This document shows positions 10,194 through 46,467 of a DNA stretch of 64,000 nt, piece after piece. Where the stretch lies: assembly GCA_919901855.1 (NCBI GenBank), contig CAKKQC010000001.1, positions 1 through 64,000 on the forward strand, given 5' to 3'. Position 1 is the first letter of the stretch; every line of letters begins with the position of its first letter. The notes below the pieces were generated by a model. It had not been told where the DNA came from and made no database searches. It saw only the letters and a list, made by a program, of their open reading frames with translations. The position numbers and the translations under genes were made by a program. Origin of the DNA: a bacterium (GTDB lineage Bacteria > Oederibacteriota > CAKKQC01).

Positions 10194-11674
10194 TCATGCG
10201 CGGTGCGATCCTCGCCATCGATCAGGGCACCACCGGGACCCACAGCCTCCTATTCGACGAGCGCGGCCGCGTCGTCGGGCGGGGCTACCGGCCGTTCCAC
10301 CAGTTCTACCCCAAGCCCGGGTGGGTCGAGCACGATCCCGAGGAGATATGGAAGACGTGCCTCGACGTCATCGGGCAGGCGTTGCGCGGCCGGCGCGCGA
10401 AGATCGCCGCGATCGGGATCACGAACCAGCGCGAGACCACGATCCTATGGGACCGGCGGACGGGCAAGCCCCTCCACCGGGCCATCGTCTGGCAGGACCG
10501 GCGCACGGCCCCCGACTGCGCCCGGCTCCGGAAGGCCGGCGCCCTCGCCGAGGTTCGGCGGCGGACCGGCCTCCTCCTCGACCCGTATTTCTCCGGGACC
10601 AAGCTCGCGTGGCTCCTGCGCGAGATCCCCGGCGCGAAGGCGACCGCGCATCGCGGCCGACTCGCGTTCGGTACGATCGACACGTGGCTTATATGGAAGC
10701 TTACGGGCGGCCGGTCGCACGTCACCGATCCCACGAACGCGTCGCGGACGCTGCTCTTCAACCTCGCTAACCGGGAGTGGGATGACTCCATGCTCCGCCT
10801 GCTTGGCGTCCCCCGGGCGGTCCTCCCCGAGGTCCGGCCGAGCGCGGGCGAGTTCGGCAGGACCGTCTCGCTGGGCGTGCTCCCCGCGGGGGTCCCCGTC
10901 ACCGGCGTCGCCGGCGACCAGCAAGCCGCGCTCTTCGGCCAAGGGTGTGTCCGGTCCGGCGAGATGAAGGTCACGTACGGCACCGGCGGATTCCTCCTGC
11001 TCCAGACCGGGCCTCGGCTCGTCCGGTCGCGGTCGGGGCTCCTGACCACGATCGCCTGCGGCTCCGCCGGCGAGGCGACCTACGCGCTCGAGGGCTCGGT
11101 CTTCATCGCCGGCGCCGCGATCCAGTGGCTCCGGGACGAGCTGAAACTGCTCAAGACGGCCGCGGAATCGGAAGTCGTCGCCCGGTCGGTCCCCGACACG
11201 GCCGGGGTCCATCTCGTGCCCGCGTTCACGGGACTGGGCGCGCCGTGGTGGGATGCCGGGGCCCGGGGCACGATCACCGGCCTGACCCGCGGCGCCGGCC
11301 GGGCCCACCTCGTCCGGGCGGCGCTGGAAGCCATCGCCTTCCAGGTCGCGGACGTCGTGGCCGCCATGCGCCGCGACCTCGGCCGGCCGATCCGGGCCCT
11401 GCGCGTCGACGGCGGCGCGTGCCGGAACGGTCTGCTCATGCAGTTCCAGAGCGACCTCCTCGACGCCGCGCTCGTCCGGCCGAAACTCATCGAGACCACG
11501 GCCGCGGGCGCCGCCGGACTGGCCGGACTGGGCGTCAAGCTCTGGACGCCGTCGGACCTCGGCCGCCTCCACCCCGTCGACCGCGTCTTCCGGCCCCGCA
11601 TGGGCGCCGCCCTTCGGCGGGAACGCCTCGCCGGCTGGCACCTCGCGGTCGCCCAGGCCAGGCTCACTATATGA
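10190..11674 (+). CDS. glpK: Glycerol kinase
   Basis: FGGY-family kinase of 494 residues, converting glycerol plus ATP to glycerol 3-phosphate in the cytoplasm. Typical GlpK stretches are 'ILAIDQGTTGTHSLLFD', 'TNQRETTILWDRRTG', 'GTIDTWLIWKLTGG', 'TDPTNASRTLLFN', 'TYGTGGFLLLQTG', 'PAFTGLGAPWWDAGARG' and 'LRVDGGACRNGLLMQFQSD'. The usual 'QGTTSSR' is 'QGTTGTH' here. The ATG at 10190 overlaps the rtcB stop (ATGA); a second in-frame ATG is at 10196. glpF and glpD are not nearby, and the gene is coupled to a two-component pair downstream. Confidence 0.93.
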   Translation: MIMRGAILAIDQGTTGTHSLLFDERGRVVGRGYRPFHQFYPKPGWVEHDPEEIWKTCLDVIGQALRGRRAKIAAIGITNQRETTILWDRRTGKPLHRAIVWQDRRTAPDCARLRKAGALAEVRRRTGLLLDPYFSGTKLAWLLREIPGAKATAHRGRLAFGTIDTWLIWKLTGGRSHVTDPTNASRTLLFNLANREWDDSMLRLLGVPRAVLPEVRPSAGEFGRTVSLGVLPAGVPVTGVAGDQQAALFGQGCVRSGEMKVTYGTGGFLLLQTGPRLVRSRSGLLTTIACGSAGEATYALEGSVFIAGAAIQWLRDELKLLKTAAESEVVARSVPDTAGVHLVPAFTGLGAPWWDAGARGTITGLTRGAGRAHLVRAALEAIAFQVADVVAAMRRDLGRPIRALRVDGGACRNGLLMQFQSDLLDAALVRPKLIETTAAGAAGLAGLGVKLWTPSDLGRLHPVDRVFRPRMGAALRRERLAGWHLAVAQARLTI

Positions 11675-13281
11675 GGCTTTCGCTCCGGCTTGCGCTGCCG
11701 TTCTTCGTGGTCGCGGCCGCCGTGACCCTCCTCGGCATCGGGGGCGTGGTCTGGCTCGTGCAACGGACCTTCGACGCCTCGCTCGCGCAGGAGGGCCGCC
11801 AGCTCGGGCGCATCACGGAGAACGCCCTGCAGGCCGAGGCCCGCCCGCTCGCGGACGCGGCCGCCGTCCTGGCCTTCGTGGACGGCAACATCGCGAGGCG
11901 GCTCGCGGCGTGGCGCAAGGTCGAGCTCGACGCGGCCGGGGTCGTGCGCCGGGACACGGGCGCCGTCGTCTCGTGGACGGGGGACGAGGTCGACCCCGCC
12001 GACCTCGCGGGGCTGATCCGCGTGTGGCCGGGAGTCTCCACCTCCGGGGAAACTCCGGGGGTCGCCTCTACCCCGGTACTCCTCCGCGCCCGCGGCCACC
12101 TGCTGCTCGCCGGACTGGCCCCCGATCGGGACGGGCGGCACATGATCGTGGCGGCGCGCCGGCTGGGCGCGGCGTTCGCGGCGTCGCTCCGCTCCCTCTT
12201 ACAGGCCGAGATCACGCTCACCGAGGACGGCCGGCCCGTCGCCGGACTCTCGGCGCACGCCGACGTCGCGCTCGTGCCCGTCACGCACCTCCTGCGGACG
12301 CCCGGGGGCGGGCGGGTGGCGCTCACGATGCACCTGCCCGGCGAGGGCGTCCGGGCGGCCCGGCGGCGCGCGATCGGGCTCACGCTCGCCGGGGGAGGCG
12401 CGCTCCTCGCCGTCGGCATCGCCTTCTATCTCTATCTGCTCGCCCGCGTGACCCGCCCCCTCGACGAACTCATCGCCGCCTGTGACCGGATCGCCGCCGG
12501 CGACCTCGGCGCCGCGCTCCCCCCCAATGCTCCGGCCGAGCTCGGAGACCTCATCGCCAAGTTCAACGCCATGGGAACCGCCCTGCGCGAGGCGCAGGAC
12601 CGGCTGGTCCGGTCCGCGAAGCTCACGAGCGTCGGCGCCCTCGTCGCCGGAGTCTCGCACGAGCTCAACAACCCCCTCTCGGTCCTCCTCACCCACGCCG
12701 AATACCAGGCCACGCAGATCCCGGCCGGCGCCCCCGGCCGCGAGGAGCTCGACGTCGTGCGCGAGCAGGGCCGCCGGATGCAGAAGATCCTGGCCGACCT
12801 CCGGGGGCTCGTCCGACCAGGCGCCGAGACGCCCGGCCCCGTCGACCTCAACGCCGTCGCGCGCGAGGCGCTCGCGCTCGTCCGCCACGACGCGACGAAG
12901 GCGCACGTGGCGTGCGAGGCGGTCCTGGCCCCCGGCGCAGTCGTGGTGACGGCCTCCGCCGACGACCTCCGCCAGATCGCGCTCAACCTCGCGATCAACG
13001 CCCTCCAGGCGATGCCGGAGGGCGGCCGGCTCGTCATCCGCACCGGCCGTGCGAGCGTCAACGGCCGCGCGATCATCCACCTGTCGGTGCAGGACACGGG
13101 CGCCGGCATCGCGGCCGGCGATCTCGCCCGCGTGACCGAGCCGTTCTTCTCGACCAAGCCCGGCCGGCTGGGGCTCGGACTCGCGATCAGCCAGGACCTG
13201 GCCCGCCGCCACGGCGGCACGCTCGTCATCGACAGCGCGCCGGGCCGGGGCACGACGGCGACGCTCGAGTTCGCGGCATGA
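11671..13281 (+). CDS. Sensor histidine kinase of cassette 1
   Basis: A 536-residue membrane kinase: TM1 about 7-30, a periplasmic sensor domain of about 200 residues, TM2 about 234-255, HAMP, HisKA with phospho-acceptor H330 in 'VAGVSHELNNPLS', then HATPase_c with the N-box near 436-445 and 'TEPFFSTKPGRLGLGLAIS'. This NtrB-like core normally phosphorylates an NtrC-type partner, encoded immediately downstream with a 4-base overlap. The start overlaps the glpK stop by 4 bases. It is a paralogue of the kinases at 20611 and 33940, with the same N-terminal look ('MRLSLRLALPFFVVAAAVT'). The signal sensed is unknown. Confidence 0.94.
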   Translation: MRLSLRLALPFFVVAAAVTLLGIGGVVWLVQRTFDASLAQEGRQLGRITENALQAEARPLADAAAVLAFVDGNIARRLAAWRKVELDAAGVVRRDTGAVVSWTGDEVDPADLAGLIRVWPGVSTSGETPGVASTPVLLRARGHLLLAGLAPDRDGRHMIVAARRLGAAFAASLRSLLQAEITLTEDGRPVAGLSAHADVALVPVTHLLRTPGGGRVALTMHLPGEGVRAARRRAIGLTLAGGGALLAVGIAFYLYLLARVTRPLDELIAACDRIAAGDLGAALPPNAPAELGDLIAKFNAMGTALREAQDRLVRSAKLTSVGALVAGVSHELNNPLSVLLTHAEYQATQIPAGAPGREELDVVREQGRRMQKILADLRGLVRPGAETPGPVDLNAVAREALALVRHDATKAHVACEAVLAPGAVVVTASADDLRQIALNLAINALQAMPEGGRLVIRTGRASVNGRAIIHLSVQDTGAGIAAGDLARVTEPFFSTKPGRLGLGLAISQDLARRHGGTLVIDSAPGRGTTATLEFAA

Positions 13282-14657
13282 CCGCCGCCGCGCCCCCCCG
13301 GGTGCGCATCCTCGTCGCCGACGACGAGCCCGGACTCGTGTCCATTCTCACGAAGACGCTCGAGGCCGAGGGCCACGCGGTCCTGGGCGCGTCCGGCGCG
13401 AAGGAGGCGCTCGCGATCGCGGAGCGGGAATCGCCCCACCTCGCGCTCGTCGACCTCACCATGCCCGACGGCTCGGGGCTCGATGTCCTTGGTGCGCTGC
13501 GCACACGCCTCCCCGAGTGCCGCGTGATCATCATGACCGCGTTCGCGACCGCGGAGACCGCGGTGGAGGCGATGCGCCAGGGCGCGCTCGACTACCTGAT
13601 CAAGCCGTTCTCCCTCGAGGAACTCAAGCTCCAGGTCCGCCGCGTCGCGGGCGAGCTCTCCCTCGAGCGCGAGAACCGGGCCCTCCGCCGCGAGCTCGCG
13701 CGGTGCGATCCGGACCAGGAAATCGTGGGGACCTGCCCGGCCCTTCTCGCCGCGCTCGACCTCGTCGCGCGCGTCGCGGACGAGGACGCCCCCGTCCTCG
13801 TCCAGGGCGAGACGGGCACCGGCAAGGAGCTGATCGCGCGCGCCCTGCACCGGCAGGGACACAGGGCGGCCGGCCCGTTCGTCGCGCTGAACTGCGGGGC
13901 CGTGGCCGAGAGCCTGCTCGAGCGCGAGCTATTCGGCCACGAGAAGGGCGCGTACACGGGCGCGGACGCCGCGGCGCCCGGGCTCCTGGAGGCCGCCGCA
14001 GACGGCACGCTCCTCCTCGACGAGATCGGGGAGATGTCCGCGGCGCTCCAGACCAAGCTGCTGCGCGTCCTCGACGGCGCGCCCTACCAGCGCGTGGGGG
14101 GCACCCGGCCGGTCCAGTGCCGGGCCCGGTTCGTGGCCGCGACCAACAAGGATCTCGCCCGCGAGGTGCGCGAGGGCCGGTTCCGGCAGGACCTCTGGTA
14201 CCGGCTCAACGTCGTGACCGTCCAGCTCCCGCCGCTCCGCGATCGTGGCGACGACATCCTCGCGATCGCCGCGCACCTGCTCGGGAGGCTGTCCGCCGCC
14301 CGCGGCCGGCCGGTCCCCGTACTTGACGCCGGCGCGGCACGGGCCCTGCGCGAATACCGGTGGCCCGGGAACGTGCGCGAGCTGCGCAACGTCCTCGAGC
14401 GCGCGACGCTGCTCGCGGAAGCCGGGACGCTGACCGCCACCGATCTGCGGCTCGTGGAGCCCGCGGGCGGGCCGCCGCCGGCGGCCGCGCCGGGATGGCA
14501 GGACCTGCCCCTGCGCGAGGCGCGCGACGCCTTCGAACGTGACTACCTCGCCCGCGCGCTCGCGGCGGCGGACGGCAACATCACCCGCGCCGCCGCCCGC
14601 ATCGGCCTCGACCGGAAAAACCTCGAGGACAAGATGAGGAAACTCGGAATCAGATAG
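13278..14657 (+). CDS. NtrC-family sigma-54 activator of cassette 1
   Basis: Response regulator of 459 residues: receiver domain with acidic pocket D15-D16 and phosphorylation site D59 in 'ALVDLTMPDGSG'; AAA+ domain with Walker A 'GETGTGKEL', the sigma-54 contact loop 'GAYTGAD', Walker B 'LLLDEIGEM' and arginine-finger region 'RFRQDLWYRLNV'; and a Fis-type helix-turn-helix at the end ('DGNITRAAARIGLDRKNLED'). An intact GAYTGA loop means it should open sigma-54 promoters, and one lies 89 bases downstream of its stop. It is translated with the kinase (ATGA). Confidence 0.95.
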   Translation: MTAAAPPRVRILVADDEPGLVSILTKTLEAEGHAVLGASGAKEALAIAERESPHLALVDLTMPDGSGLDVLGALRTRLPECRVIIMTAFATAETAVEAMRQGALDYLIKPFSLEELKLQVRRVAGELSLERENRALRRELARCDPDQEIVGTCPALLAALDLVARVADEDAPVLVQGETGTGKELIARALHRQGHRAAGPFVALNCGAVAESLLERELFGHEKGAYTGADAAAPGLLEAAADGTLLLDEIGEMSAALQTKLLRVLDGAPYQRVGGTRPVQCRARFVAATNKDLAREVREGRFRQDLWYRLNVVTVQLPPLRDRGDDILAIAAHLLGRLSAARGRPVPVLDAGAARALREYRWPGNVRELRNVLERATLLAEAGTLTATDLRLVEPAGGPPPAAAPGWQDLPLREARDAFERDYLARALAAADGNITRAAARIGLDRKNLEDKMRKLGIR

Positions 14658-14664
14658 GGGTATC

Positions 14665-14697
14665 GGCGCCCCGCCTCCTCCGGGGCGCCGGCGCCCC
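14665..14697 (+). repeat. GC-rich dyads between regulator 1 and the sigma-54 promoter
   Basis: Two overlapping dyads. GGCGCCCCG (14665-14673) pairs with CGGGGCGCC (14681-14689) across a 7-base loop, and 14682-14697 is a perfect 16-base palindrome (GGGGCGCCGGCGCCCC). There is no T-run, so a classical terminator is doubtful; the position, 50-80 bases upstream of a sigma-54 promoter, also suits an activator-binding site. Confidence 0.5.
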
Positions 14698-14745
14698 GGT
14701 GAACCCCGGAATGCTCCGAAACATGCCATGGGAGCCTTCCATCCC

Positions 14746-14761
14746 CGGCACGCCGTTTGCA
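14746..14761 (+). promoter_or_regulatory. Sigma-54 (-24/-12) promoter of giant gene 1
   Basis: CGGCACG-CCGT-TTGCA matches the consensus TGGCACG-N4-TTGCA at every base but the first, with GG (14747-14748) and GC (14759-14760) exactly 10 bases apart. Start of transcription is expected near 14772, giving a leader of about 45 bases with a GAGG ribosome site. It lies just after an NtrC-type activator gene. Confidence 0.85.
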
Positions 14762-14816
14762 CTTCAGGTATCCCCGATATGCAGGCCATACCCGTTTCCG
14801 GGAAAGCGAGGAATCC

Positions 14817-17800
14817 ATGAGCGTCTCCTCCAGCCCGCGATCGCGGAACGCGGTAACCGGTCTGCTGTGCCTCTTCTCGCTGCTGGGTGTCTCCCCTGTG
14901 GAAGCGGTGACTCCCTCGATCGTCTGGAGCCGCACCTACAACGATGCCATCAACGGCTGGGATTACCTTTACGACGCGGTCGTGGATCCGTCGAACAACG
15001 TCGTCATGAGCGGCTCGGACGAGGCGTCCGGGACCGGGGGGAGCATGCTCGTACGCAAGTACAGCTCCGCCGGCGACCTCCTGCTCCAGCTCAACTACAA
15101 CAGCCCCGCTAACGGCAATGACGGGGCGTACGGCGTGGCGACCGACAGCGCCGGGAACATCATTGCTGCAGGCCAGGAAGACCGGCCCGACCTGGGCCAG
15201 GGGATCAACTGGCTCCTCCGCAAGTACGATTCGACCGGCACGCTGCTGTGGACCCGGTCGTACAACGGATCCGTGAACCAGGATGAGTGGGCTTGGGGCA
15301 TCGCGACCGATCCCGCCGACAGCATCGTCGTGACGGGAATCACTCAGCCCACGATCGGAACTCTGGATTGGCTCACCCGCAAATACGACGCCGCGGGAGT
15401 CCTGCTGTGGAGCCGGACGCACAACGGCCCCGGAAACGCGATCGACGAAGCCTGGGACGTCGCAAGCGACGCGAGCGGGAACAGCTACGTAGCCGGGTAC
15501 GAGAACGGCGGCGGCACCCAGGGAAACAACTGGCGGATCATCAAGTACGACACGGCCGGGGGCATCGTCTGGAGCCGGAGCTATGGCTCACCGGCGTCGG
15601 GCTCGGACGACCGGGCGGAATCGATCGTCGTGGATCCGACGGGCAACGTCTACGCGGGAGGCTTCACGGACCGGAGCGATCTGGGACAGGGCGTCAACTG
15701 GCTCATCGTCAAGTACGACCCCGCGGGGGCCGTCGTCTGGAGCCGGACCTACAACAGCCCGGCCAACTCCGTTGATGTCTGCGCCCGGCTGGCGCTGGCG
15801 CCGGACGGGACGCTGGTCGCGGTCGGCTGGGAGAACCGGTCGGATCTCGGTCAGGGATCGAACTGGCGGGTCTTCGGCTACGACCCGAGCGGCATCTTGC
15901 TGTGGACCCTGACGCACAACGGATCCTCCAGCGGAACGGACGAGGCGAAAGGGGCCACGACGGGGCCGGACGGCTCCATCTACGTGGTGGGCATCGCGTC
16001 CGCCACGGGACAGAACGTCAACTGGCTTGCCTGGAAACTCGGCACTCCCCTGACCCCGCCCGCCATCAGCGTATCCAAGTCCGTGCTCCCGGCCATGGTG
16101 AACCCCGGGGACGCCATCACCTACACGATCACGGTCTCGAACACCGGAGCGTCCACCGTTGCGGATCTGCTCGTCGCGGACACCCTGCCGCCCGCCATCG
16201 CGTTCACGGGCCAGAGCAACACGGCCGGGCTGACCTGGAACGGCGGGACATCGGTCATGGGCTGGAGCGGCCCGGTCACGCTCGGCCCCGGCGGAAATAT
16301 CACGATCACGGTGAACGGCACGGCCGCGACCTGGTTCACTGGTTCCGTCTGCAACACCGGATACGCCCGCGCCTCGAACGCCGACGGTAGCGACGTCGAG
16401 AGCTCCTCCCTGTGCTTCCCGCTGATGGCGCCCGTGCCGCCGGTTGTCTCATGCGGCCCCCGCGCGGTCGTCTGGAGCCGCACCTACAACGACGCCATCA
16501 ACGGCTACGACTACCTCTACGCCTCCGCGCTCGATCCGTCCGGCAACCTCATCATCGGCGGGTCGGACGAGGCCTCGGGGACGGGCGGCAGCATGCTCGT
16601 CCGCAAGTACGACCCCTCCGGCAATCTCCTGCTCAATCTTTCCTATAACAGCCCCGCGAACAGCAACGAGGCCGCGTTCGGCGTCGCCTCGGATCCCTCG
16701 GGGAATATCATCGCGGCGGGCTGGGAGATCCGGTCCGACCTTGGCCAGGGGGATAACTGGCTGGTGCGGAAGTACAACGCCGCGGGCACCCTCCTGTGGT
16801 CCCGCAGCTGGAACGGACCCGGGAACACGGACGACGAGGCGCTGGCGGTGACCGCTGACGCGGCCGGCAACATCTACGTGGTCGGCTACCTCGCGCTGGG
16901 TCCGAACAACCTCGAGTGGCTGGTCGCCAAGTACGACGCCGCAGGTACCGTGGTCTGGAGCCGGACCTACCGTGGCCCCATCGCCGAGGGCCATACGGCG
17001 TCAGAGGTCGCCCTGGATACGAGCGGGAACGTCATCGTCGTGGGTTCCGAGGTGGTCGATCTGTCGTCCCAGCTTCGGAACTGGCGGATTCATAAGTATG
17101 ACGCCGCGGGCAACCTGCTCTGGAGCCGCACCGTGGGCAGTCCCGCCAGCATGTCGGACGACCGGCCGACGGGCGTCGTAACGGACGCCTCGCAGAACAT
17201 CTACGTCGGCGGGTGGCTCAACCGGTCCGATCTCGGCCAGAGCGCGAACTGGCAGATCATGAAGTACGACGCCTCCGGCGCGCTCGTTTGGACCCGCGCG
17301 TACAACGGCCCGGCAAGCGGGACCGACGTCTGCACCAGGCTCGCTCTGGATTCACAGGGGGAACTCGTCGCCTCCGGCTACGACACCCAGGCCGGCCAGG
17401 GGAACAATTGGCGGGTATGCGCCTACGACACGGACGGAACCGTGCTCTGGACGTACACCTACAACGGCGTATCGAACGCCGAAGACCAGGCCCAGAGCGT
17501 CGCCGCCGCCCCCGACGGCAGCCTCTACGTCGTCGGCTGGGAGGTCGTCGCCGGCCAGAACCAGAACTGGCGGATCATCAAGCTCCGCGAGGCCTGCGCG
17601 CCGAGCATCGCCGTGCAGAAATCCGTGGCTCCGGCGACCGCGAACCCCGGGGACGCCGTCACCTACACGATAAGGGTGACCAACACCAGCTCGACCGTGA
17701 TCTCGGACCTCACCGTCGTGGACACCCTGCCCGCGCCGTTCGTATTTGGGTCCCAGACCTCGTCGCCCGGCCTTACGTGGAACGCCAGCACGACCCTCCC

Positions 17801-19463: not shown

Positions 19464-19493
19464 TGGGCGACCTCCTGAGCGCCGCGTAACCAT

Positions 19494-19607
19494 ATGGAAG
19501 AGAACCCGGAGGAATCCGGAGAGTCCAAGTGGCACTGCGTCTGGATCGTCCTGCTGATCCTGGCGCTTCTGGCTGTCGCCCGCCTTGCCATCGGGGGCAT
19601 CCGCTAG
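19494..19607 (+). CDS. Small single-span membrane protein (37 aa)
   Basis: A short open frame between giant gene 1 and its PorV-like partner. An acidic N-terminus (MEENPEESGESKWH) is followed by one hydrophobic helix ('CVWIVLLILALLAVARLAIG') and a terminal Arg. No family is recognised and no strong ribosome site is seen, so it could be a chance frame; the clean acidic-head plus helix pattern and operon position argue for a real small protein. Cassettes 2 and 3 have no equivalent, since there the giant and PorV-like genes abut. Confidence 0.45.
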   Translation: MEENPEESGESKWHCVWIVLLILALLAVARLAIGGIR

Positions 19608-19649
19608 CCGGGACTTGGAATCCCAGCTCCGAGGGTGCATCATCGAAGC

Positions 19650-36944: not shown

Positions 36945-36984
36945 GGCGCCTCTCGCGCCGGGGCATTTCCACCCCACCCCGGGG
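36945..36984 (+). repeat. GC-rich dyads upstream of sigma-54 promoter 3
   Basis: GGCGC-ctctc-GCGCC (36945-36959) and the 8-base palindrome CCCCGGGG (36977-36984). Weaker than the dyads in cassettes 1 and 2, but in the same place between regulator and promoter. Confidence 0.35.
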
Positions 36985-37036
36985 AGGTCTTTCCCCACCC
37001 CCACCGCCGATCCTCTATATACAGTGCCCTGGTTCC

Positions 37037-37052
37037 CGGCACGGGAGATGCA
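37037..37052 (+). promoter_or_regulatory. Sigma-54 (-24/-12) promoter of the cassette 3 operon
   Basis: CGGCACG-GGAG-ATGCA, two mismatches to the consensus, GG (37038-37039) and GC (37050-37051) 10 bases apart. Transcription should start near 37063, about 3 bases before the ATG at 37066, so the mRNA would be essentially leaderless. Confidence 0.8.
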
Positions 37053-37065
37053 TAGATAAGGCAGG

Positions 37066-37860
37066 ATGTCGAGATTGGGTGGAATCGGGAGCGCGGGCAG
37101 AACGGCGGGGGCTGCCGTGGCGATGGCGCTGGCGGCCCTAGCGCCCGCCCCCGGTCTGAGCGTGAGCTACCAGATCATCGCCCCCCCTACCGTCGGGTGC
37201 GGTGCCCCGTTCTGGATCACGGTCGTCGTCCTCGATGTCTCGGGCGTCACGCGGGTCGACTACTGCGGCACGATCGCGTTCACCTCGACCGACCCCGCCG
37301 CCCGGATTGAGGGGCTGGCGATGGGCGCGTACACCTACACGTGGACGAGTTCTCTCGCCTGCTCGGGGGCGCCCAACGACAATGGCGTCAAGCTCTTCGT
37401 CAACGTGGTACTGCCCTCTCCCGGTCCCCAGACGATCACGGCCGTGGACACGATCGACGGATCGATCACGGGCCTCCTCTCGGTCATGGTCGTCTGCGCG
37501 GACGTCAAGCTCTGGGGCTCCCCCGCCTCCGTCATGGCAGAAACCGGCCAGACCGTCCGGTTCCGCGCCTGCTGGAGCAACTACTCGACGGGGTCCGCGT
37601 TCGCGTTCACGATCACGGACCCGGTGCCGCTGGGGGCCTCCTTCGTCCCCGAGGCGTCGATCGCGAACCTGGACGCGGGCAACACGGCCGGCGTCCCGCT
37701 CACGGTCGGGTACTCGACCTCGCCCACGCCGACCGCGCCGCCGGCGGACTCCTTCGTCACCGGCAACCCGGTCGCGGGAACCCGGTGGCTGCGATGGACG
37801 GCGCCGCTGGCGGGCGTCGGCACCACGGGTTGCGGGTGCTTTCGGGTGAAGGTGCAATGA
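37066..37860 (+). CDS. Secreted Ig-like protein, first gene of the cassette 3 operon
   Basis: A 264-residue exported protein with signal peptide (to about residue 30) and beta-rich Ig-like sequence. The second half is DUF11-like ('GQTVRFRACWSNYSTGSAF', 'ITDPVPLGASFVPEASIAN'). Several Cys occur, including a terminal 'GCGCFRV'. It begins right after the sigma-54 promoter and overlaps the next gene as ATGA. Probably a surface component assembled with the next four products; function otherwise unknown. Confidence 0.7.
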   Translation: MSRLGGIGSAGRTAGAAVAMALAALAPAPGLSVSYQIIAPPTVGCGAPFWITVVVLDVSGVTRVDYCGTIAFTSTDPAARIEGLAMGAYTYTWTSSLACSGAPNDNGVKLFVNVVLPSPGPQTITAVDTIDGSITGLLSVMVVCADVKLWGSPASVMAETGQTVRFRACWSNYSTGSAFAFTITDPVPLGASFVPEASIANLDAGNTAGVPLTVGYSTSPTPTAPPADSFVTGNPVAGTRWLRWTAPLAGVGTTGCGCFRVKVQ

Positions 37861-38387
37861 CGATCAAGCGGTACGCCACCATGATCCTCCTGGCCACGGC
37901 CCTCCTCGCGGCGGGCGGCGCGTATGCCTGGCTCGAGACCGGGACCCTGCTCACGAACGCGGCATCCGCGACTTACCAGAACTACGGCGGCCAGTCGACG
38001 GTCACCTACTCGGCCACGATGCGCGTGGTCGTCATGAACCCGTACCTATTCGTCTGGAAGGACTGCACCCCCACGTACGTGACCACGATCGGCGGGTACG
38101 TGACCTACACCCTCAGTTTCTCCAACGGGGGCGCCAACTCGGCCTTCAACGTCACGCTCAACGACATCATGCCCAACGGCAGCGGCGTTTGGTGGATCGG
38201 CTATGCGGGGCACGGGGCCTGGTCCGGCACGGGAGTCCCGGCGCCCTCGTGGAGCGCCAACGGCACGACCTGGGCGCCGGGCACGCCCGGCTTTGGCCAG
38301 CAAGGGCCGCTCTCGCTTCGCTGGATCGTGCCCAGCCTCCCCGCCGGGGCCAGCGGCATCGTGACCTACGTGGTGTCGCTCGGATGA
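37857..38387 (+). CDS. Secreted DUF11-like protein (176 aa)
   Basis: An exported protein of 176 residues: signal peptide 'MTIKRYATMILLATALLAAG', then 'LLTNAASATYQNYGG', the N-terminal motif shared by this gene and the next three, and a DUF11-like core ('GGYVTYTLSFSNGGANSAFN', 'LNDIMPNGSG'). It overlaps both neighbours by 4 bases (ATGA at each end), so it is translated as part of one chain of genes. Single-domain size suggests a subunit rather than a free adhesin; this is inference. Confidence 0.72.
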   Translation: MTIKRYATMILLATALLAAGGAYAWLETGTLLTNAASATYQNYGGQSTVTYSATMRVVVMNPYLFVWKDCTPTYVTTIGGYVTYTLSFSNGGANSAFNVTLNDIMPNGSGVWWIGYAGHGAWSGTGVPAPSWSANGTTWAPGTPGFGQQGPLSLRWIVPSLPAGASGIVTYVVSLG

Positions 38388-38983
38388 GGACCCGGGCGAT
38401 CATCTCCATAGCTTCGCTCGCGGTGCTGCTGGCCACCATCCGGCCGGCCGCCGCTTCGCTCTCCTCGGGACTCCTCCTCACGAACTTCGTCTCGGCCACC
38501 TACGCCCTCATCGAGGGGGACGGTGTCGACATGTCCGGTCCAGGCACGAACGTGATCAACATACCCAACGCCGCGACCGCGTGGGTGCTGGTCACGGACT
38601 CCCCGCAGCTGTGCATGCAGGGCTGGAAGCGCGCGATCGCGGACGGAGCGGGCACCCCGCTTCCGCCCCCGGGCACGCGCGCTCCGGGCGACCTCCTTTG
38701 CTTCGAGATCGGGTTCTCGAACTGCGGCGACTTCACGGGATGGTCGGTCCATATCACTGACGTTCTCCCCGCGAACGTGGTGAAGACGGCAACACTTCCG
38801 GGGGGCCTCTGGGTAGGCGGCGGATACCAGTCCATCCTGACGCCATGGGCAACGAGCATCGGAGGTCCCTGGTACACGTACTCGAACACGGGGCTCGTAC
38901 AGCCCCTGTATCTGCGCTGGATTCTGGGCAAGGTCGGCCTCCACAAGACCGGGTACGTCCGGTACTGCGTGACGGTGCTCTGA
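38384..38983 (+). CDS. Secreted DUF11-like protein (199 aa)
   Basis: An exported protein of 199 residues with signal peptide, then 'LLLTNFVSATYALIEG' and a core around 'LCFEIGFSNCGDFTGWSVHI' with paired Cys. A closely similar segment lies inside giant protein 3 (its residues about 1124-1277: 'TTDCTGWSVVITT', 'LYLRWILGRVGLHKSGFIRY' against 'LYLRWILGKVGLHKTGYVRY' here), so one probably arose from the other. Starts within the previous stop (ATGA) and ends in TGATG with the next gene. Confidence 0.75.
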   Translation: MRTRAIISIASLAVLLATIRPAAASLSSGLLLTNFVSATYALIEGDGVDMSGPGTNVINIPNAATAWVLVTDSPQLCMQGWKRAIADGAGTPLPPPGTRAPGDLLCFEIGFSNCGDFTGWSVHITDVLPANVVKTATLPGGLWVGGGYQSILTPWATSIGGPWYTYSNTGLVQPLYLRWILGKVGLHKTGYVRYCVTVL

Positions 38984-39519
38984 TGGCGCGCGGGGGGTTC
39001 TCGGTCTGCCTTCTCGTGCTCTGGACCACCTTCTGGCCGTCCTCCGGCCGGGCCGCCACCGCGTGGGGCACTGTCATCACTAACGTGGCGACAATCACGA
39101 TGAGCTCCGGAGCCCCCGATTTCGTCGGCTACCAGCTCCCCTACAACATGACCTGCACCGTGCCGATCATGCCCGCCTCCTCAATCCGGGTCCTGAAGTA
39201 CGTGGTGCCGGCCATCGAGAGCCCGGGCGGGACGCTGACCTACACGATCTGGTACGTCAACCGGTCCGCCAGCGCGTCCTCATTCAACATCGTCGCCACC
39301 GACGCCCTCCCGGCGAACGTCGCCTACGACCTCGGACGGGGGTCCTGGAACGGCGGATCGGGGGGCACATGGGCGTCCTTGTACTCGTCGAACAACGTCA
39401 CTTACGCCGGCGGCCAGCCGGCGGCTGGCCAATCCGAACCCTGCTACCTCCGCTTCGTCCTGGACTGGCTTGGTCCCGCCAAGAGCGCGCTCATCTCCTA
39501 TTCGGTGACGATCCGGTGA
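38983..39519 (+). CDS. Secreted DUF11-like protein (178 aa)
   Basis: An exported protein of 178 residues: signal peptide, then 'GTVITNVATITMSSGAPDFV', a variant of the motif seen in its neighbours, and a DUF11-like core ('GGTLTYTIWYVNRSASASS', 'ATDALPANVAYDLG'). The start shares a base with the previous stop (TGATG) and the stop overlaps the GTG of giant gene 3 (GTGA). No family name beyond DUF11-like can be given. Confidence 0.72.
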   Translation: MARGGFSVCLLVLWTTFWPSSGRAATAWGTVITNVATITMSSGAPDFVGYQLPYNMTCTVPIMPASSIRVLKYVVPAIESPGGTLTYTIWYVNRSASASSFNIVATDALPANVAYDLGRGSWNGGSGGTWASLYSSNNVTYAGGQPAAGQSEPCYLRFVLDWLGPAKSALISYSVTIR

Positions 39520-42500
39520 AACCGGCAAGCGCCGCGCGGGTCCTCGCAGCCGTCGCCGGGCTCTCATTCAGCCTCCCTGTCCCTGCATGCGCCGCGACCG
39601 CGGCCGGGTCTATCATCACCAACCTGGTCTCGGTCTACTGGTGGAACGAACTTAGCCAGACGGTCACCGGGGCGCCCATGTCGGACACGCAATCGGCCGC
39701 GTACGCGACCGTAGGGGGTTTCGCGAGCGCGGTTTCGGGGACCTCGGATCGGGTCTCGGCGGCCCCGGGCGACATCGTCACGCGTACGATCACCTACTCG
39801 ATACCCGCCAGCGTATCCGCCGCCACGCTCGTCCTCTTCGACACGCTCCCCCCGTACGTGCACTACGTAGCGGGGAGCGCATCGATCGCGCCGGATCCGG
39901 GCTGGGACCCGGACCCGGGGCCGCCCGGACACGTGCGGTGGACGATAGCGGGCCCGTTCCCGTCCGGGGTATCCGGCGAGATCACGTACCAGTACTCCGT
40001 GGACTGGGGAGCCGGCGAGATATTCGAGCCCGGCAGCGGCGACGTCGCGGCGCCGGAAGCGTACCCGCTCCTGGCCCGGCCTCTCCTCTCCTGGGCCGGC
40101 GGCACGCCCGGTGGACTCCTCGGGGCCACGTCCACGGTTTTCGTCGACTGGTTCGAGTTCATCAAGACGGGCCCGCCCGGCGGAAGCGAGGTCGCGTACA
40201 CGATCATGGTCCGCAACAAGTCCGCGGCCAAGACCTGGTTCGGAGTCACGGTCTGGGACACGGTACCTGCCGCCCTCGACGTCTGGGCGCCCGGCTACGG
40301 GTTTGGCGACCCCTGCAATACGTGGAGCATGACGCCGACCGGCTGTCCCGCCGGGTCGCCGTCCTGGACCACGGCGGGTGGCCGGACGCTTTTGCGCTGG
40401 AACCTCGGCGCCCTCGGCCCCGGCCAGAGCGTCTATCTCGTCTGGCAGGCCCGGCTCGATCCCGCGGTCACATCCGCCACCACCGTGGACAACATCGCCG
40501 CGGTGGCGGCAGCCGGCCAGCCCGGTCCCGGCGGCACCGGCGCCTCCGGCGCGAACTGCTTCGCGGTCGCTTCCCTGCCTCTTGTGCCGGGCTACACTCC
40601 TCCCGGGGCCCCGCCCGGCCTGACCGCGCGGCACCTCGGAGGATCGATCGGTCTATCGTGGAGCACTGCGGCGGCCGGGTCGTCACCGATCACGGCCTAC
40701 CTCATCTACCAGGCAACCTGCGCGACCTGTGCCGGCTACGCGTACGACATGGTCTGGGCGCCCAAGGCCAAGTACGTGGACGTGTATATCGTTCCCTACG
40801 ACCCCTACTGGTACGAGATCACGGCGCTCGACGAGACCTGGGTAGAGAGCCCGCCGTCGCCGCGCGCGATGGCAGCATACGGTCCGTGCACGGACCCGTC
40901 CTGGTACCCGCGGGCCCCGATGTTGTCGGTGGAGGCCGACAATCCCGCCGTAGCGTCCATCGGCGGCAGGCTGGTTCTGGCCGGGGGACTCGACGTGGAG
41001 GTGTTCGACCCCGCGATGGAGACCTGGACGGCCGGCGCACCCCCGCTCAACGAGGAATACGAAGTCGCCTCGGCGGCGCTGAATGGAACGCTCTTCGTCG
41101 CGGGGGGGTACGGCCCGGCCAGCGGGTGGACCCCCGTGAACACGGTCAACGCCTACGGCGCCGGCACGGATTCGTGGTCGACACTCGCGTCGATGCCCAC
41201 GGCCCGTTGGTGCGCGACAGGCGCCGCGGCGAACGGCAAGTTCTACGTGATCGGCGGCTTCGATTCGTCGAGCACCGGGCTGTCCACGGTGGAGGAGTAC
41301 GATCCCGCGACCAACTCTTGGGCGACGAGGTCTCCGATGCCGACGGCCCGGGGCCTCTCCGCTGCGGCCACGGCGGGGGGCAAGATCTACGTGATTGGCG
41401 GTTACCCGGACTACGGGGTGAACGACGCGTACGACACCGTCGAGGTCTACGACCCCGTCCTCGACTCCTGGGCCACGGCACCGGCGATGCCGGTGCCCAA
41501 GGCCGGGCTCTCGGCGGCGGTCGTCGGCGGTTCGATCTACGTAATCGGCGGCGACTACAGTTGGGTTCCCACTTCGTCGGTGGACGTGTTCGACACTGCG
41601 ACGAACTCGTGGACCCCCGCGTGCCACCTCAACACGCCGAGGACCTGGGCGGGCGCCGCCGCGATTGGAGGCACCGTCTACGTCATGGGCGGATTCGACG
41701 GTGGCTGGGCGCCTCTCAACACGGTCGAGGCCACGTCCCCTTCGGGCCCGCCGCCGACCCCACCGTCCGCTCCGGGGACGTTGACCGCACTGGGCGGACC
41801 CGGGCTGGTCCAACTGGAGTGGAGCCCCGCCGTACCCGGCACCTACCCGGTGGCCGGCTACGACCTGTACCGGTCCACGTGCTCGGCCTGCGGGTTCACG
41901 ATCCTCGGAGTCATCGGCGCCGGGGCCACGTCGTTCTCGGACTACGGCGTGCCGTCCTGTGACACGGCTTGGTACAAAATCCAGGCGCTGGATACGCTTG
42001 CCAACGTGGGCCCATTCAGCGTGACGATCTCGGGGGCTCCGACCTGCGCGCCGGTCACGGGCCTCGCGGTCACGGCCGTGAAGACGATGAACCCCGCCGC
42101 GCCCGGGCTCGGCACGCCCGTGACGTTCCAGATCGTGGTCACGAACTCGGGCGCCCAGACGATCACGGATCTCACGGTCGTGGACACGGTCTCGCCGCTC
42201 ATCGTGAACCAGGTGGCGGGGACCCCGGCGGGGTGGGCCGCGCCCGCGGTGACCTCGGTTGCCTCGGGTACCCGGTACATGTGGAGCTCGGCGGGGCTGA
42301 CATTCCTGCCCGGCACCTCGACCACGTTCACGATCAGCGGCAACATCGGGGTGTTCCTCTGGCCCCCGGCAGTCTCGAACACGGCCTTCGTCACCGCCAG
42401 CGGGCCGGCCGGCGCGACTTCGATCTCGACCAACGTAGTCGGTAGTGTCATCCAGCCGCCGGTGGCCTCGCTCTCGGTCGTGAAGTTGCAGACTCCGGCG

Positions 42501-44294
42501 GCGCCGGTCACGGGCGGGCCCGTGTCCTACCGGATCGTGATGACCAACACGGGTTCGGCGACACTCGACAACGTGTCGATCATGGATACGCTGCAGGCCG
42601 TGATCACCGCCGTCACGACGGACCAACCGGCGGGGATGGGCCTACCGGTCGTCGCCGACGCCGGATCCGGTACCCGGTACGTCTGGACCAGTGCCGGGCT
42701 CACATTCCTGCCCGGACAGAGCCTGACCGTCACGATCACGGGCACCGTGGGCACCGTGGCCGTGCCAACCGCGGTGAGCAACACGGCCTACGTCACCGGC
42801 TGGTGCTCGTGGATGATTGGGCTCGGATCGGCGGCCGCCTACTCGCCCGTCATCGGGTTCGTCGTGGCGCCGGTCACGATGTGCGCACCGGCCCTCGACC
42901 TCTGGGAGAGCACCCCGGTGCCGCAGAACGCGAAGGCGGGCGATGTAGTCGAGTACCGGATCTCGTTCTCCAACACGACGGACTGCACGGGATGGTCGGT
43001 CGTGATCACAACGCAGGGGGGATCGTTCTCGAACCGGGTCAAGACGGTCACGCCCCCCGGTTCCCTCTGGGTATCGGGAGGCTTTGGTGCGGTTCTGCCC
43101 CAGTGGGCCAACAGTCTCAACGGGCCCTGGAACGCGACATCGGACAACGGACAGACCGAGCCGCTTTACCTGCGCTGGATACTCGGCCGCGTGGGGCTCC
43201 ACAAGTCCGGGTTCATCCGGTACCAGGCCCAGGTCCTGCCGGGATCGTGCCAGCTCCTGCCCGCGTACGCCTCGGCAACGCTGACGAGCGGGTTCCCCGA
43301 CTTCATACCGTACATCGTGCCCTACACGGCCTCCGCTACCGGGAATCAGCTCTGTGACCCGCCGGCCGCACCGCTTACGCTCTCGGCGGTCGGCGGAGTC
43401 GGCCAGATCGTGCTCGGCTGGACTCCCGCCGCTCCAGGAGCCAATCCGCTTACCGCGTACGAGATATTCCGGTCCACGTGTGGCGGATGCGCGTACGTCT
43501 CCGTCGCGACCGTGGGATCCTGGCTCGCGCAGTGGGCCGACACGACCGTGCCCGTCGGTGTCGTGAGCACCTACGAGGTCCTGGCTCGCGACGCAGTCGG
43601 GATCACGGGCATTCTGTCCGTCCCCTCGGGCAACGCGACTCGCCTGCCGCCTCCGGACGCGGTGCTGACGGCGTCGGCGGCGGCGCCGATGACCGAGTAC
43701 GTCGGCAACACGTTCAACGTCGTCGTCACGATCCACAACACGGGAACGGGGGCGGCGAACGCCGTGACGCCATCGCTCGGCGTGGCGGCCGGGGCCCCCT
43801 TCGTCTCCCTCATGTCCGGCCCGATCCCGACGGGGCCCTTTGCCATCCCGGCTGGCGGCTCTTCGAGCTTCACGTGGGTGTACCGGGCCGACGGCGCTGG
43901 GCCGGTATCGTTCGCAGCATCGGGGGCGGGCACCGACCTCAACACGGGGCTCCCCCTCGGCAGTGCCTCGTCGACGGCGAACGTCGCGCTGAGCCTGACG
44001 CCGACGGGGACCGTGGTCATCATCGGCGGGCCGACTGGCCCGATCGACCCCACCCTCGGCCAGCAGGTCGCGATCACGGTATGGCCGTCGGGCGCCGGGA
44101 CGATCACGGTCCGGATCTACGACATGGGCGGGACGCTCGTGCGGACGATGATGGCGTCCACCGGAGGCGGCGGCGTGACCTTCTACTGGAACGGACGGGA
44201 CAACGGCGGCGCGATCGTGCCGCCGGGCGGGTACCCGATCCAGATCCTGGGGCCGGGCGTGAACAAGACGGACATGCTGGGAGTGCTGTACTGA
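39516..44294 (+). CDS. Giant secreted protein 3 (DUF11, fibronectin, Kelch; FlgD-like C-terminus)
   Basis: A 1592-residue exported protein starting at GTG 39516 inside the previous stop. Signal peptide and the 'IITNLVSVYWW' motif open it; then DUF11-like Ig domains to about 360, a fibronectin-like domain 360-455, a six-blade Kelch propeller 464-739, a second fibronectin-like domain 744-843, two DUF11 repeats to 1122, a segment resembling the product at 38384 (1124-1277), a third fibronectin-like domain to 1375, a CARDB-like domain to 1498, and the shared C-terminal domain (1500-1592: 'GGPTGPIDPTLGQQ', 'VRIYDMGGTLVRTM', 'VPPGGYPI'). CxxC motifs recur in the fibronectin-like domains. Probable surface adhesin or fibre. 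Confidence 0.86.
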   Translation: MKPASAARVLAAVAGLSFSLPVPACAATAAGSIITNLVSVYWWNELSQTVTGAPMSDTQSAAYATVGGFASAVSGTSDRVSAAPGDIVTRTITYSIPASVSAATLVLFDTLPPYVHYVAGSASIAPDPGWDPDPGPPGHVRWTIAGPFPSGVSGEITYQYSVDWGAGEIFEPGSGDVAAPEAYPLLARPLLSWAGGTPGGLLGATSTVFVDWFEFIKTGPPGGSEVAYTIMVRNKSAAKTWFGVTVWDTVPAALDVWAPGYGFGDPCNTWSMTPTGCPAGSPSWTTAGGRTLLRWNLGALGPGQSVYLVWQARLDPAVTSATTVDNIAAVAAAGQPGPGGTGASGANCFAVASLPLVPGYTPPGAPPGLTARHLGGSIGLSWSTAAAGSSPITAYLIYQATCATCAGYAYDMVWAPKAKYVDVYIVPYDPYWYEITALDETWVESPPSPRAMAAYGPCTDPSWYPRAPMLSVEADNPAVASIGGRLVLAGGLDVEVFDPAMETWTAGAPPLNEEYEVASAALNGTLFVAGGYGPASGWTPVNTVNAYGAGTDSWSTLASMPTARWCATGAAANGKFYVIGGFDSSSTGLSTVEEYDPATNSWATRSPMPTARGLSAAATAGGKIYVIGGYPDYGVNDAYDTVEVYDPVLDSWATAPAMPVPKAGLSAAVVGGSIYVIGGDYSWVPTSSVDVFDTATNSWTPACHLNTPRTWAGAAAIGGTVYVMGGFDGGWAPLNTVEATSPSGPPPTPPSAPGTLTALGGPGLVQLEWSPAVPGTYPVAGYDLYRSTCSACGFTILGVIGAGATSFSDYGVPSCDTAWYKIQALDTLANVGPFSVTISGAPTCAPVTGLAVTAVKTMNPAAPGLGTPVTFQIVVTNSGAQTITDLTVVDTVSPLIVNQVAGTPAGWAAPAVTSVASGTRYMWSSAGLTFLPGTSTTFTISGNIGVFLWPPAVSNTAFVTASGPAGATSISTNVVGSVIQPPVASLSVVKLQTPAAPVTGGPVSYRIVMTNTGSATLDNVSIMDTLQAVITAVTTDQPAGMGLPVVADAGSGTRYVWTSAGLTFLPGQSLTVTITGTVGTVAVPTAVSNTAYVTGWCSWMIGLGSAAAYSPVIGFVVAPVTMCAPALDLWESTPVPQNAKAGDVVEYRISFSNTTDCTGWSVVITTQGGSFSNRVKTVTPPGSLWVSGGFGAVLPQWANSLNGPWNATSDNGQTEPLYLRWILGRVGLHKSGFIRYQAQVLPGSCQLLPAYASATLTSGFPDFIPYIVPYTASATGNQLCDPPAAPLTLSAVGGVGQIVLGWTPAAPGANPLTAYEIFRSTCGGCAYVSVATVGSWLAQWADTTVPVGVVSTYEVLARDAVGITGILSVPSGNATRLPPPDAVLTASAAAPMTEYVGNTFNVVVTIHNTGTGAANAVTPSLGVAAGAPFVSLMSGPIPTGPFAIPAGGSSSFTWVYRADGAGPVSFAASGAGTDLNTGLPLGSASSTANVALSLTPTGTVVIIGGPTGPIDPTLGQQVAITVWPSGAGTITVRIYDMGGTLVRTMMASTGGGGVTFYWNGRDNGGAIVPPGGYPIQILGPGVNKTDMLGVLY

Positions 44295-45469
44295 TGCGGC
44301 TCCTGTGGACCCTCGCGCTGGTGCCGGCGCTCGCCGCGGCGGGGACGTCGCCGATCAACGTCCTCAACAAGGTCGAACCGACGCGGACGCAGTCCATCGG
44401 CGGCGCGGGAGTCGCGATCGGCGTCGACCCCACGCTGGTCTGGATCAACCCGGCCGCGGCCGTGCACTGCGACGGGGCGTCGCTCACCATGGAGGGCCAG
44501 CAGGGCTTCTTCCGCGAGACCACCGGACAGGCCCTGTGGGCGACCCCGCTTCGCGGGGGGGTCGTCTTCGCCGGCGCCCTCTACTACGACGCCGGGACGG
44601 CCAAGATCGCGGACTCGACCGGAGCCCTGCGGAGCTACGACCTCCAGCAGGACTTCGCGGGCATGATCGGGTACGCGGCTCCGATCTCGAAGACCGTGTC
44701 GTCGGGCGTGACGCTCCAGTGGCTCCGCAGCGAGCTGTTCAACCGCTCTTCGAGTTCGCTCAACGGCGACGGCGGCGTCCAGATCGCGATCAGCCGCTAC
44801 CTCAAGGTCGGATTCGCGCTCCAGCACGTGGGCACGAAGCTCACGTACCTCAACCACGACATCGATCTGCCCACGACGGCGCGGGTTGGAGTCGCACTCG
44901 GCATGCGGCCGGCCGAGCTCCTGCCCTTCATGGGATCGAAGGACACGCTCGTCGCCGTCCTGGACGCCGTCCAGCCCGTGGTGGAAAAGAAAGCTTACTG
45001 GAAGACGGGCATTGAATACCGTTGGCAACGGCTCATCGCGCTCCGGGCCGGGGCCAACGGCGGAGGCCGCGTGGAGCTCTCGAACTACGCCGCCGGGTTC
45101 GGGCTGCGGTTCGGCCGGTTCCGGCTGGACTACGGAATCCGGTTCGGCCATGCGTTCAGCAACCCGCAGACGCTTTCGCTGACCGTCGCCCTCCCGTCCC
45201 TCGGGGCCTCCGCGCCGGCGCCGGCCGCATCGCTCTCGCCGGCCGCGCCCGGGCCGTCCGCCCCGCCACAGTACGGCGGGCCGACCCTGCCGGTGGAGCC
45301 GGAGGAGTTGGCCCTGCCGACGGAACCCGAGCCCACCGGGACGCCGGAGACCACCCAGGTGGCGCCGCCGCCCGTGCCGCCCGCGCCGCGGTCGGACGAG
45401 GGCGGGCTCATCGACGACCTCAACCGCCAGCTCGACGAGCTTATTCACAAGGGCTCGTCGGGAAAGTAG
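44294..45469 (+). CDS. PorV/PorQ-like outer-membrane protein of cassette 3
   Basis: A 391-residue predicted outer-membrane barrel, paralogue of the genes at 19650 and 32705. Signal peptide, then 'LNKVEPTRTQSIGGAGVAIG' and 'DPTLVWINPAA', barrel strands ending 'YGIRFGHAFSNPQTLSLTVA', a proline/glutamate-rich linker of about 70 residues and the terminal motif 'LIDDLNRQLDEL' like that of the cassette 2 copy. The ATG shares one base with the stop of giant gene 3 (TGATG). Suggested role: outer-membrane shuttle or anchor for the giant protein, by analogy with PorV. Confidence 0.83.
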   Translation: MRLLWTLALVPALAAAGTSPINVLNKVEPTRTQSIGGAGVAIGVDPTLVWINPAAAVHCDGASLTMEGQQGFFRETTGQALWATPLRGGVVFAGALYYDAGTAKIADSTGALRSYDLQQDFAGMIGYAAPISKTVSSGVTLQWLRSELFNRSSSSLNGDGGVQIAISRYLKVGFALQHVGTKLTYLNHDIDLPTTARVGVALGMRPAELLPFMGSKDTLVAVLDAVQPVVEKKAYWKTGIEYRWQRLIALRAGANGGGRVELSNYAAGFGLRFGRFRLDYGIRFGHAFSNPQTLSLTVALPSLGASAPAPAASLSPAAPGPSAPPQYGGPTLPVEPEELALPTEPEPTGTPETTQVAPPPVPPAPRSDEGGLIDDLNRQLDELIHKGSSGK

Positions 45470-45477
45470 CCAACGGC

Positions 45478-46467
45478 GTGGGCGGCGCGATCCCGGCGCT
45501 GTCCCTCGTTCTCGCGATTCTAAACCCGTCTCCCGCCCGGACCGACGACACGTTCGTCACCCCGTCGCTGCGATGCTCGGGCGGCTGGACGGACAACGCG
45601 AACGGCGGCGTGGACGATCCGACGGCCGGGCGGCCGCCCGTCCCCGCCCCGTTCGTCCTCGTCGAGCCGGGGATCCGGATCGGCGACAGGCCGGTCCCCC
45701 GGGTCCAGGCCGGCGCCGGGTACCGGGCCGGCGTAGAGCGGTACCGCGCGGCCGGCGACGAGAACGCCTTCGCCCACCGGGTTGATGGGACAGTCACGGT
45801 CGAGCCGGTAGGGCCGGCCTGGACCGCCGAGGGGTCATGGGATCGCAAGGACTACCCCGCCGCGCACGGGGCGCTCTCGTACCGGGCGGGACGCGGCGGG
45901 ATCTCGGCCTCCCTGCCGCTCGATGGGGACCTCGGCACGATGGCAACCGCGGGCTGGGCTCTCACGCAGTGGCGGTGGCCCGGCGACCGGTATCCGGTGG
46001 GTGACGGCTCCGCAACGGCGGGGCGCGCCGACCTCACGAACCGGGGTTCGGTCGGCATCCGCCGGCGGCTTGGGAGTCGCGTCGTCGCCGGCCTCCAGGC
46101 GCTCTGGGCGCAGAACCGGAGCCGCGCGCTCGGAGCCGGGCCCGCCGGCCTCCGCGAGCGGTTCTCGTGGGCCGGCCCCGGCGCCATCGTCTCGGCCGGC
46201 GTCGCGCCCTCGGGGTGCACGATCCTGACGGTGGCCGCGCAGGTGCAGTCGCGCGGCTACCGGGACTGGATCGCGGGGACCCCGCCCGCCCGCGTGACCG
46301 GCCAGGCGCTCGCGCTCGCGGCCTCGGGGTCCTGGGCCTGCACCCGGCTCGTCTCGGTCGTCGCGGACTACGCGTACCTGCGCCACGATGCCGCCGACCC
46401 CGCCCTGCGGCTGCGCGCCCAGCGCGTGAGCCTCGGGGTCCGCATCGCCCCGCGGCTTCCCCTGTAA
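45478..46467 (+). CDS. Predicted outer-membrane beta-barrel protein
   Basis: A 329-residue exported protein of no recognised family. After a signal peptide ('GGAIPALSLVLAILNPSPAR') the sequence is a series of amphipathic strands rich in Gly, Trp, Tyr and Arg ('VQAGAGYRAGVERYRA', 'WTAEGSWDRKDYPA', 'VSVVADYAYLRHDA', 'RVSLGVRIAPRLPL'), typical of barrel proteins. The likely start is GTG at 45478, 8 bases after the PorV-like stop with GGGAAAG upstream. It ends the cassette 3 operon and has no equivalent in the other cassettes. Confidence 0.65.
   Translation: MGGAIPALSLVLAILNPSPARTDDTFVTPSLRCSGGWTDNANGGVDDPTAGRPPVPAPFVLVEPGIRIGDRPVPRVQAGAGYRAGVERYRAAGDENAFAHRVDGTVTVEPVGPAWTAEGSWDRKDYPAAHGALSYRAGRGGISASLPLDGDLGTMATAGWALTQWRWPGDRYPVGDGSATAGRADLTNRGSVGIRRRLGSRVVAGLQALWAQNRSRALGAGPAGLRERFSWAGPGAIVSAGVAPSGCTILTVAAQVQSRGYRDWIAGTPPARVTGQALALAASGSWACTRLVSVVADYAYLRHDAADPALRLRAQRVSLGVRIAPRLPL

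Follow-up and report, generated by a model that had tools for sequence, protein, structure and literature searches.

Tandem gene cassettes encoding giant repeat proteins, PorV-family barrels and two-component/sigma-54 regulators outside Bacteroidota

The window, i.e. the whole stretch of 64,000 nucleotides that we analyzed, carries three gene sets arranged head to tail on the plus strand, at 11671-20579, 20611-33898 and 33940-46467, flanked by glpK (10190-11674) on the left and an AbiE-like gene pair (46533-47794) on the right. The order within each set is the same: histidine kinase, NtrC-type activator, sigma-54 promoter, giant repeat protein and PorV-family barrel. A sequence-only reading of this DNA had proposed this threefold order, and all three sets were found where it had placed them. 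Kinase and activator genes overlap by four bases in each set, and the gap of ~120-160 nt between activator and giant contains a -24/-12 promoter. Cassette 3 has additional genes: four small secreted genes (37066-39519) 5' of the giant gene, and a second predicted barrel (45466-46467) 3' of the PorV-family gene. The features are as follows (K, kinase; A, activator; G, giant; V, PorV-family barrel; the basis of each call is in brackets):

11671-13281, plus strand: K1, 536-aa membrane histidine kinase with sensor, HAMP, HisKA and HATPase domains, its start overlapping the glpK stop (Pfam, alignment)
13278-14657, plus strand: A1, NtrC-type response regulator, 459 aa, GAYTGA (Pfam, motif)
14664-14690, strand unassigned: candidate activator-binding dyad CGGCGCCCCG-N7-CGGGGCGCCG, or a hairpin (sequence only)
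14745-14761, plus strand: sigma-54 -24/-12 promoter of cassette 1, CCGGCACGCCGTTTGCA (motif search)
14817-19463, plus strand: G1, 1548-aa giant cargo with repeats of propeller (SBBP/delta-60) and DUF11 type and a FlgD/T9SS-CTD-like domain at the C-terminus (profiles, domain model)
19650-20579, plus strand: V1, PorV-family barrel, start corrected to ~19650 (NF033709, 85.8 bits, cut-off 90)
20611-22254, plus strand: K2, histidine kinase, with a TAAGAT -10-like box 15 nt 5' of its start (Pfam, alignment)
22251-23627, plus strand: A2, NtrC-type activator, paralogue of A1 at 61.5% identity, GAYTGA (own-genome search)
23716-23732, plus strand: sigma-54 promoter of cassette 2, CCGGCACGGGGTATGCA (motif search)
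23748-32708, plus strand: G2, 2986-aa giant cargo with repeats of DUF11 and kelch type and the C-terminal domain (profiles, alignment)
32705-33898, plus strand: V2, PorV-family barrel, overlapping the G2 stop (NF033709, 92.5 bits; structure model)
33940-35595, plus strand: K3, histidine kinase, paralogue of K2 (51%), with a TAAGAT -10-like box 15 nt 5' of its start
35592-36944, plus strand: A3, NtrC-type activator, GAFTGA (Pfam, motif)
37036-37052, plus strand: sigma-54 promoter of cassette 3, CCGGCACGGGAGATGCA (motif search)
37066-37860, 37857-38387, 38384-38983 and 38983-39519, plus strand: four overlapping small secreted genes, DUF11-like (profiles, sequence)
39516-44294, plus strand: G3, 1592-aa giant cargo with repeats of kelch and DUF11 type and FlgD_ig at the C-terminus (35.4 bits, cut-off 27)
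44294-45469, plus strand: V3, PorV-family barrel (NF033709, 88.3 bits, cut-off 90)
45466-46467, plus strand: additional predicted outer-membrane barrel, cassette 3 only (by eye)

Several smaller observations concern the array and its surroundings. Between G1 and V1, at ~19495-19607, lies a short open frame of ~37 aa with one hydrophobic segment, which shares the frame of V1 but is ended by a stop. The small genes of cassette 3 overlap by 1-4 nt, and three of the four are similar to one another and to the N-terminal part of G3 ('LLTN..SATY'). Their products resemble a single domain present in separate copies and may be minor subunits of a surface structure. The pair behind cassette 3 comprises an AbiEi-like regulator (AbiEi_4, 25.2 bits) and an AbiEii nucleotidyltransferase (62.1 bits), and so resembles a type IV toxin-antitoxin system. 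The leftmost part of the window is lower in GC (0.61), and its minus strand encodes a 610-aa WD40/PD40-like secreted protein (19-1851).

The barrels had been called PorV-like by the sequence-only reading, an assignment confirmed by both profile and structure searches. V2 passes the cut-off of the PorV/PorQ family NF033709, V1 and V3 fall just below it, and the only NCBIfam barrel families matched at E 0.01 were PorV/PorQ families, not the PorP/SprF family. The barrels scored 26-36 bits against the PorV equivalog NF033710, below its cut-off of 250. Among solved structures, an AlphaFold2 model of V2 (pLDDT 88.3) was matched best by PorV as resolved in the T9SS translocon (6h3i, Foldseek E 6e-12, and 8gl6, Foldseek E 9e-13; Z 33) and next by FadL-type channels including FadL, TodX and CymD (Z 27-31). 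The additional barrel of cassette 3 had no family match in the profile searches.

The giants are Sec-type proteins built from DUF11, propeller and kelch repeats, each closed at the C-terminus by an Ig-like domain. This domain was modeled as a seven-strand Ig-like fold (pLDDT 89.6). Its highest-ranking Foldseek matches include PorZ, GH3 enzymes, FlgD and also PorU, but the Z-scores tie with those of generic Ig folds. The type A (TIGR04183) and type B (TIGR04131) C-terminal signals gave no match in G1 or G3 at E 0.01.

A single gene for the SprA/Sov translocon was detected in the genome, on contig 23 (TIGR04189, 263.6 bits, cut-off 200). The gene for this 1951-aa homologue (L037, L017) is followed directly by one for a 709-aa cargo with the terminal domain and then by a PorV gene; in the sister genome, too, SprA lies on one contig with PorV (G001:C500). 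The genome likewise has one rpoN. Because SprA and RpoN are each encoded by one gene outside it, the array is not the self-contained system that the sequence-only reading had envisaged, although cargo, PorV, kinase and activator do stand together. Its proposal of surface display is likely to hold, judging from the PorV fold, the cargo-type C-terminal domain and the presence of SprA. Neither the GldL/M motor (TIGR03517) nor a PorU-type C25 sortase (PF01364) was matched in this genome or in any control genome.

SprA/Sov was found in 39 of 44 genomes of the phylum, which carry 4-33 PorV-family matches each (28 in the genome of the array). At 38 phylum loci outside the cassette-bearing family, 31/50 PorV genes had a same-strand neighbor with a cargo-type C-terminal domain, compared with 6/318 other ORFs, and PorV was mostly the downstream partner; the order kinase, activator, cargo, PorV occurred at none of these 38 loci. 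As the cargo-PorV pair is phylum-wide and the regulator pair was found in one family only, the cargo-PorV pair is probably an older, widespread module to which the two-component/sigma-54 part was added in the cassette-bearing family. Two loci in another family (L086 and L088, family f8, two genera) show a different arrangement: within ~10 kb of the same strand they carry an NtrC-type gene (accompanied in L088 by a kinase gene), the gene for a sigma-70-type (ECF-like) factor, genes for secreted proteins, a PorV gene and a cargo gene. We rejected them as cassettes because the NtrC-type gene lies 5-7 kb upstream, with the ECF-like factor and other genes between.

The cassette itself recurs within its family. 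A complete, isolated fourth cassette lies on contig 37 of the same genome (L012), in the same order and with the promoter TGGTACGCGCCTTGCA. A sensor-HAMP profile search of 289 genomes recovered clear members of the kinase family only in this genome and in its sister genus of the same family, 'Candidatus Coatesbacteria' nzgw597 (G001), which has at least four cassettes; the other 287 relatives yielded none, save one weak match of 64 bits to the sensor in another phylum (G163), which we set aside because its 15-kb locus held no activator or PorV match. The order is the same on every informative contig of the sister genus: giant, PorV, kinase, activator, giant on both L028 and L029, and kinase, activator, giant, PorV on L031. 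On L030, glpK precedes a K1-like kinase, as at the left border of the array. The search of related genomes for the ordered set that the sequence-only reading had proposed thus found it in the isolated cassette and in the sister genus, and nowhere in the cassette-bearing family were these genes scattered among unrelated partners or in mixed order. Four copies in one genome and at least four in the other support the expandability that this reading supposed. The cassette is a real, conserved and modular unit.

The histories of its parts agree incompletely. In trees built without an outgroup (a distant one left the kinases unresolved), the kinase of cassette 3 grouped with that of sister cassette d (support 100/100), and a grouping of d with cassette 2 was rejected (p 7e-5). 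In the PorV tree, by contrast, d grouped with cassette 2 (92/93), and d with cassette 3 was rejected (p 0.028). The activator tree joined cassette 1 to sister cassette b (96/95). The conflict between kinase and barrel suggests module exchange: if L028 and L029 join, cassette d would combine a cassette-3-like kinase with a cassette-2-like PorV, its regulator and cargo halves having been exchanged. These two contigs overlap by 156 bp at 98%, whereas the internal repeats of G1 and G2 are at most ~77% alike over at least 100 bp, so they very probably do join. Pairwise identities are correlated between kinase and activator (Mantel r 0.61, p 0.007), kinase and PorV (0.56, p 0.015), activator and PorV (0.58, p 0.017), and terminal domain and PorV (0.45, p 0.02), and no link was seen between the regulators and the terminal domain; with 6-7 cassettes, all of these are weak tests. 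Co-divergence of the component trees, which had been suggested as a check of the unit, is therefore partial: the identities covary, but kinase and PorV trees disagree over cassette d.

The kinases have HAMP, HisKA and HATPase domains, and the activators combine a receiver (Response_reg), an AAA+ domain with intact GAFTGA or GAYTGA (Sigma54_activat) and a Fis-type HTH (HTH_8). Identities of 47-53% among the three array kinases and 61-64% among the three activators agree with their earlier description as clear paralogues; in its own genome the kinase family has four members, the next-best kinase being a 36% partial match. Sensor regions are 27-42% identical, compared with 54-61% for the catalytic part, a divergence that fits a different signal for each kinase. 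A TANRAT -10-like box stands 12-16 nt 5' of the start in 6/7 kinase genes, with a chance expectation of ~0.5% each, which makes a separate promoter for the kinase-activator pair probable.

Sigma-54 promoters had been predicted in the three activator-giant gaps of the array, and they are present in all of them. When we searched both strands of the 64 kb (~128,000 positions) for TGGCACG-N4-TTGCA with at least 10 of 12 fixed bases matched, six sites were found, three of them in these gaps. The stricter CCGGCACG-N5-TGCA occurs four times in the 4.68-Mb genome, each time just 5' of a giant gene or of the first gene after an activator (the reversed pattern, used as a control, occurs once): three copies are in the array gaps, and the fourth, at 98244-98260 of contig 7 (L013), precedes a gene for a ~3,600-aa giant with a FlgD-type C-terminus. 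An own-genome search found no kinase or activator of the cassette family on contig 7, and control of this giant in trans is possible, judging from the motif. Sites matching 9-11 of 12 bases, with the -24 GG and -12 GC at consensus spacing, are present in all seven activator-cargo gaps (three in the array, one in the fourth cassette, three in the sister genus). The promoter cores are near-identical between gaps and the dyads differ. A perfect 24-bp palindrome, CGCTGCAGTGATATCACTGCAGCG, found only before the fourth cassette (L012:12427-12450), lies ~40 bp 5' of its sigma-54 promoter and is a strong candidate activator site.

Taken together, these data suggest that the sets are cargo-plus-shuttle modules of an SprA-dependent, T9SS-like route and that a two-component/sigma-54 switch is fused to each of them, a reading to which we assign a probability of roughly two in three. 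In each module, the membrane kinase, whose periplasmic sensor has diverged, would phosphorylate the adjacent NtrC-type activator, which together with sigma-54 would fire the -24/-12 promoter in the gap 3' of its own gene. The resulting transcript would encode the giant Sec-exported repeat protein and then, as the gene order has it, the PorV-family barrel. The Ig-like domain at its C-terminus would act as the signal for the giant to cross the outer membrane through the single detected SprA/Sov homologue, and, by analogy with PorV and PorP/SprF, the partner barrel would take the giant from the translocon to the surface and perhaps anchor it there. New surface proteins may be gained by duplication or recombination of whole or half modules. 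The full picture, in which a lineage outside Bacteroidota has given each giant of an SprA-based route its own PorV-type shuttle and sensor-kinase/sigma-54 switch, in tandem cassettes with exchanged halves that display different adhesins in response to different signals, we put forward only tentatively, at somewhat less than even odds.

The cargo-PorV pairs could function as proposed and yet share their regulation, with kinases and activators cross-talking on near-identical promoters in a co-regulated amplification, and we consider this a sizable, if lesser, chance. The DNA-recognition helices are near-identical (A1, A3 and sister activators b and d share LDRKNLEDK), so cross-talk is possible and the activator-promoter step may not be private; the near-identical promoter cores and the motif-bearing giant on contig 7 point the same way. 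Against this, the sensors have diverged more than the catalytic cores, the dyads differ between gaps, and the activators differ in the alpha-1 residues of the receiver, the usual seat of partner choice. The dedicated regulation proposed by the sequence-only reading is thus suggested by gene position, promoters and sensor divergence, but qualified by the recognition helices. The switches could also be chained: only ~26-57 nt separate a PorV gene from the next kinase, inspection by eye showed no obvious terminator there, and sigma-54 transcripts reading through into the next kinase-activator pair would make the cargos appear in sequence. Such a relay is unlikely given the -10-like box before most kinase starts and the solitary fourth cassette.

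Two further readings would dispense with the proposed route or with the unit itself. The structural scores of FadL, TodX and CymD come near those of PorV, and the barrel might be a FadL-like transporter of hydrophobic compounds with the giant as its surface-binding partner and no type-IX-like secretion involved; the two top structural matches and the NCBIfam families are nevertheless PorV/PorQ, SprA adjoins a cargo-PorV pair in this genome, and PorV neighbors cargo throughout the phylum, which makes a transporter improbable. The obvious paralogy could also reflect plain tandem duplication of an ordinary two-component operon near unrelated surface genes, the order being due to recent ancestry. 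We regard this as very improbable, since the divergence is old (kinases 47-53% identical) and both genera, as well as the isolated copy, retain the order, with no mixed order found.

In Bacteroidota, to which a 2025 paper considers the type IX system exclusive, PorV is described as serving every type A cargo as its shuttle (PMC12618676). Our cassettes share with the type A/PorV arrangement of Porphyromonas and Flavobacterium the PorV fold, a C-terminal Ig-like domain of ~100 aa and SprA/Sov, but differ in that TIGR04183 is unmatched and in that the phylum has up to 33 PorV-family matches per genome, often beside individual cargos. Literature searches found no paper linking Coatesbacteria with type IX secretion, and only unrelated papers for PorV with sigma-54. 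Genome and phylum together suggest an SprA-based route outside Bacteroidota in which PorV has multiplied into seemingly cargo-specific shuttles. If this is true, cargo-shuttle specificity could be studied through natural matched pairs, and the tandem paralogous kinase-regulator-promoter sets would provide a clean test of how signaling insulation evolves.

The gene arrangement recalls the type B cargos of the Flavobacterium T9SS, which need a PorP/SprF-like shuttle encoded downstream for their secretion (PMC12618676); there too, giant repetitive adhesins are followed by a cognate 14-strand barrel, in several pairs per genome, and exported by an SprA translocon (PMC12618676, PMC9143113). A shuttle gene lies directly downstream of the cargo in all of our cassettes, but the barrel is of the PorV/PorQ family, the terminal domain does not match TIGR04131, the host lies outside Bacteroidota, and each pair adds a two-component/sigma-54 switch. 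In PorXY-SigP of P. gingivalis, a two-component system also governs the type IX route, but its targets are the genes for T9SS components, and its partner is an ECF sigma factor (PMC7712824), whereas the cassette pair adjoins a single cargo and would work with sigma-54. The proposed regulation is closer to that of the PEP-CTERM system, where a transmembrane kinase (PrsK) and a sigma-54 response regulator (PrsR) are linked to -24/-12 promoters of sorted surface proteins, except that one PrsK/PrsR pair there is associated with many unlinked PEP-CTERM genes (PMC1569441, PMC9850573). No PEP-CTERM signal was found in the cassettes, and matches to PrsR (TIGR02915, 380.8 of 502.6 bits) and PrsK (TIGR02916, 73.3 of 300 bits) remained below cut-off. 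As described, neither the type B PorP/SprF system nor the PEP-CTERM system combines both features or gives each cargo its own sensor and switch; here, outside Bacteroidota, surface proteins seem to be added as ready-made, separately controlled modules.
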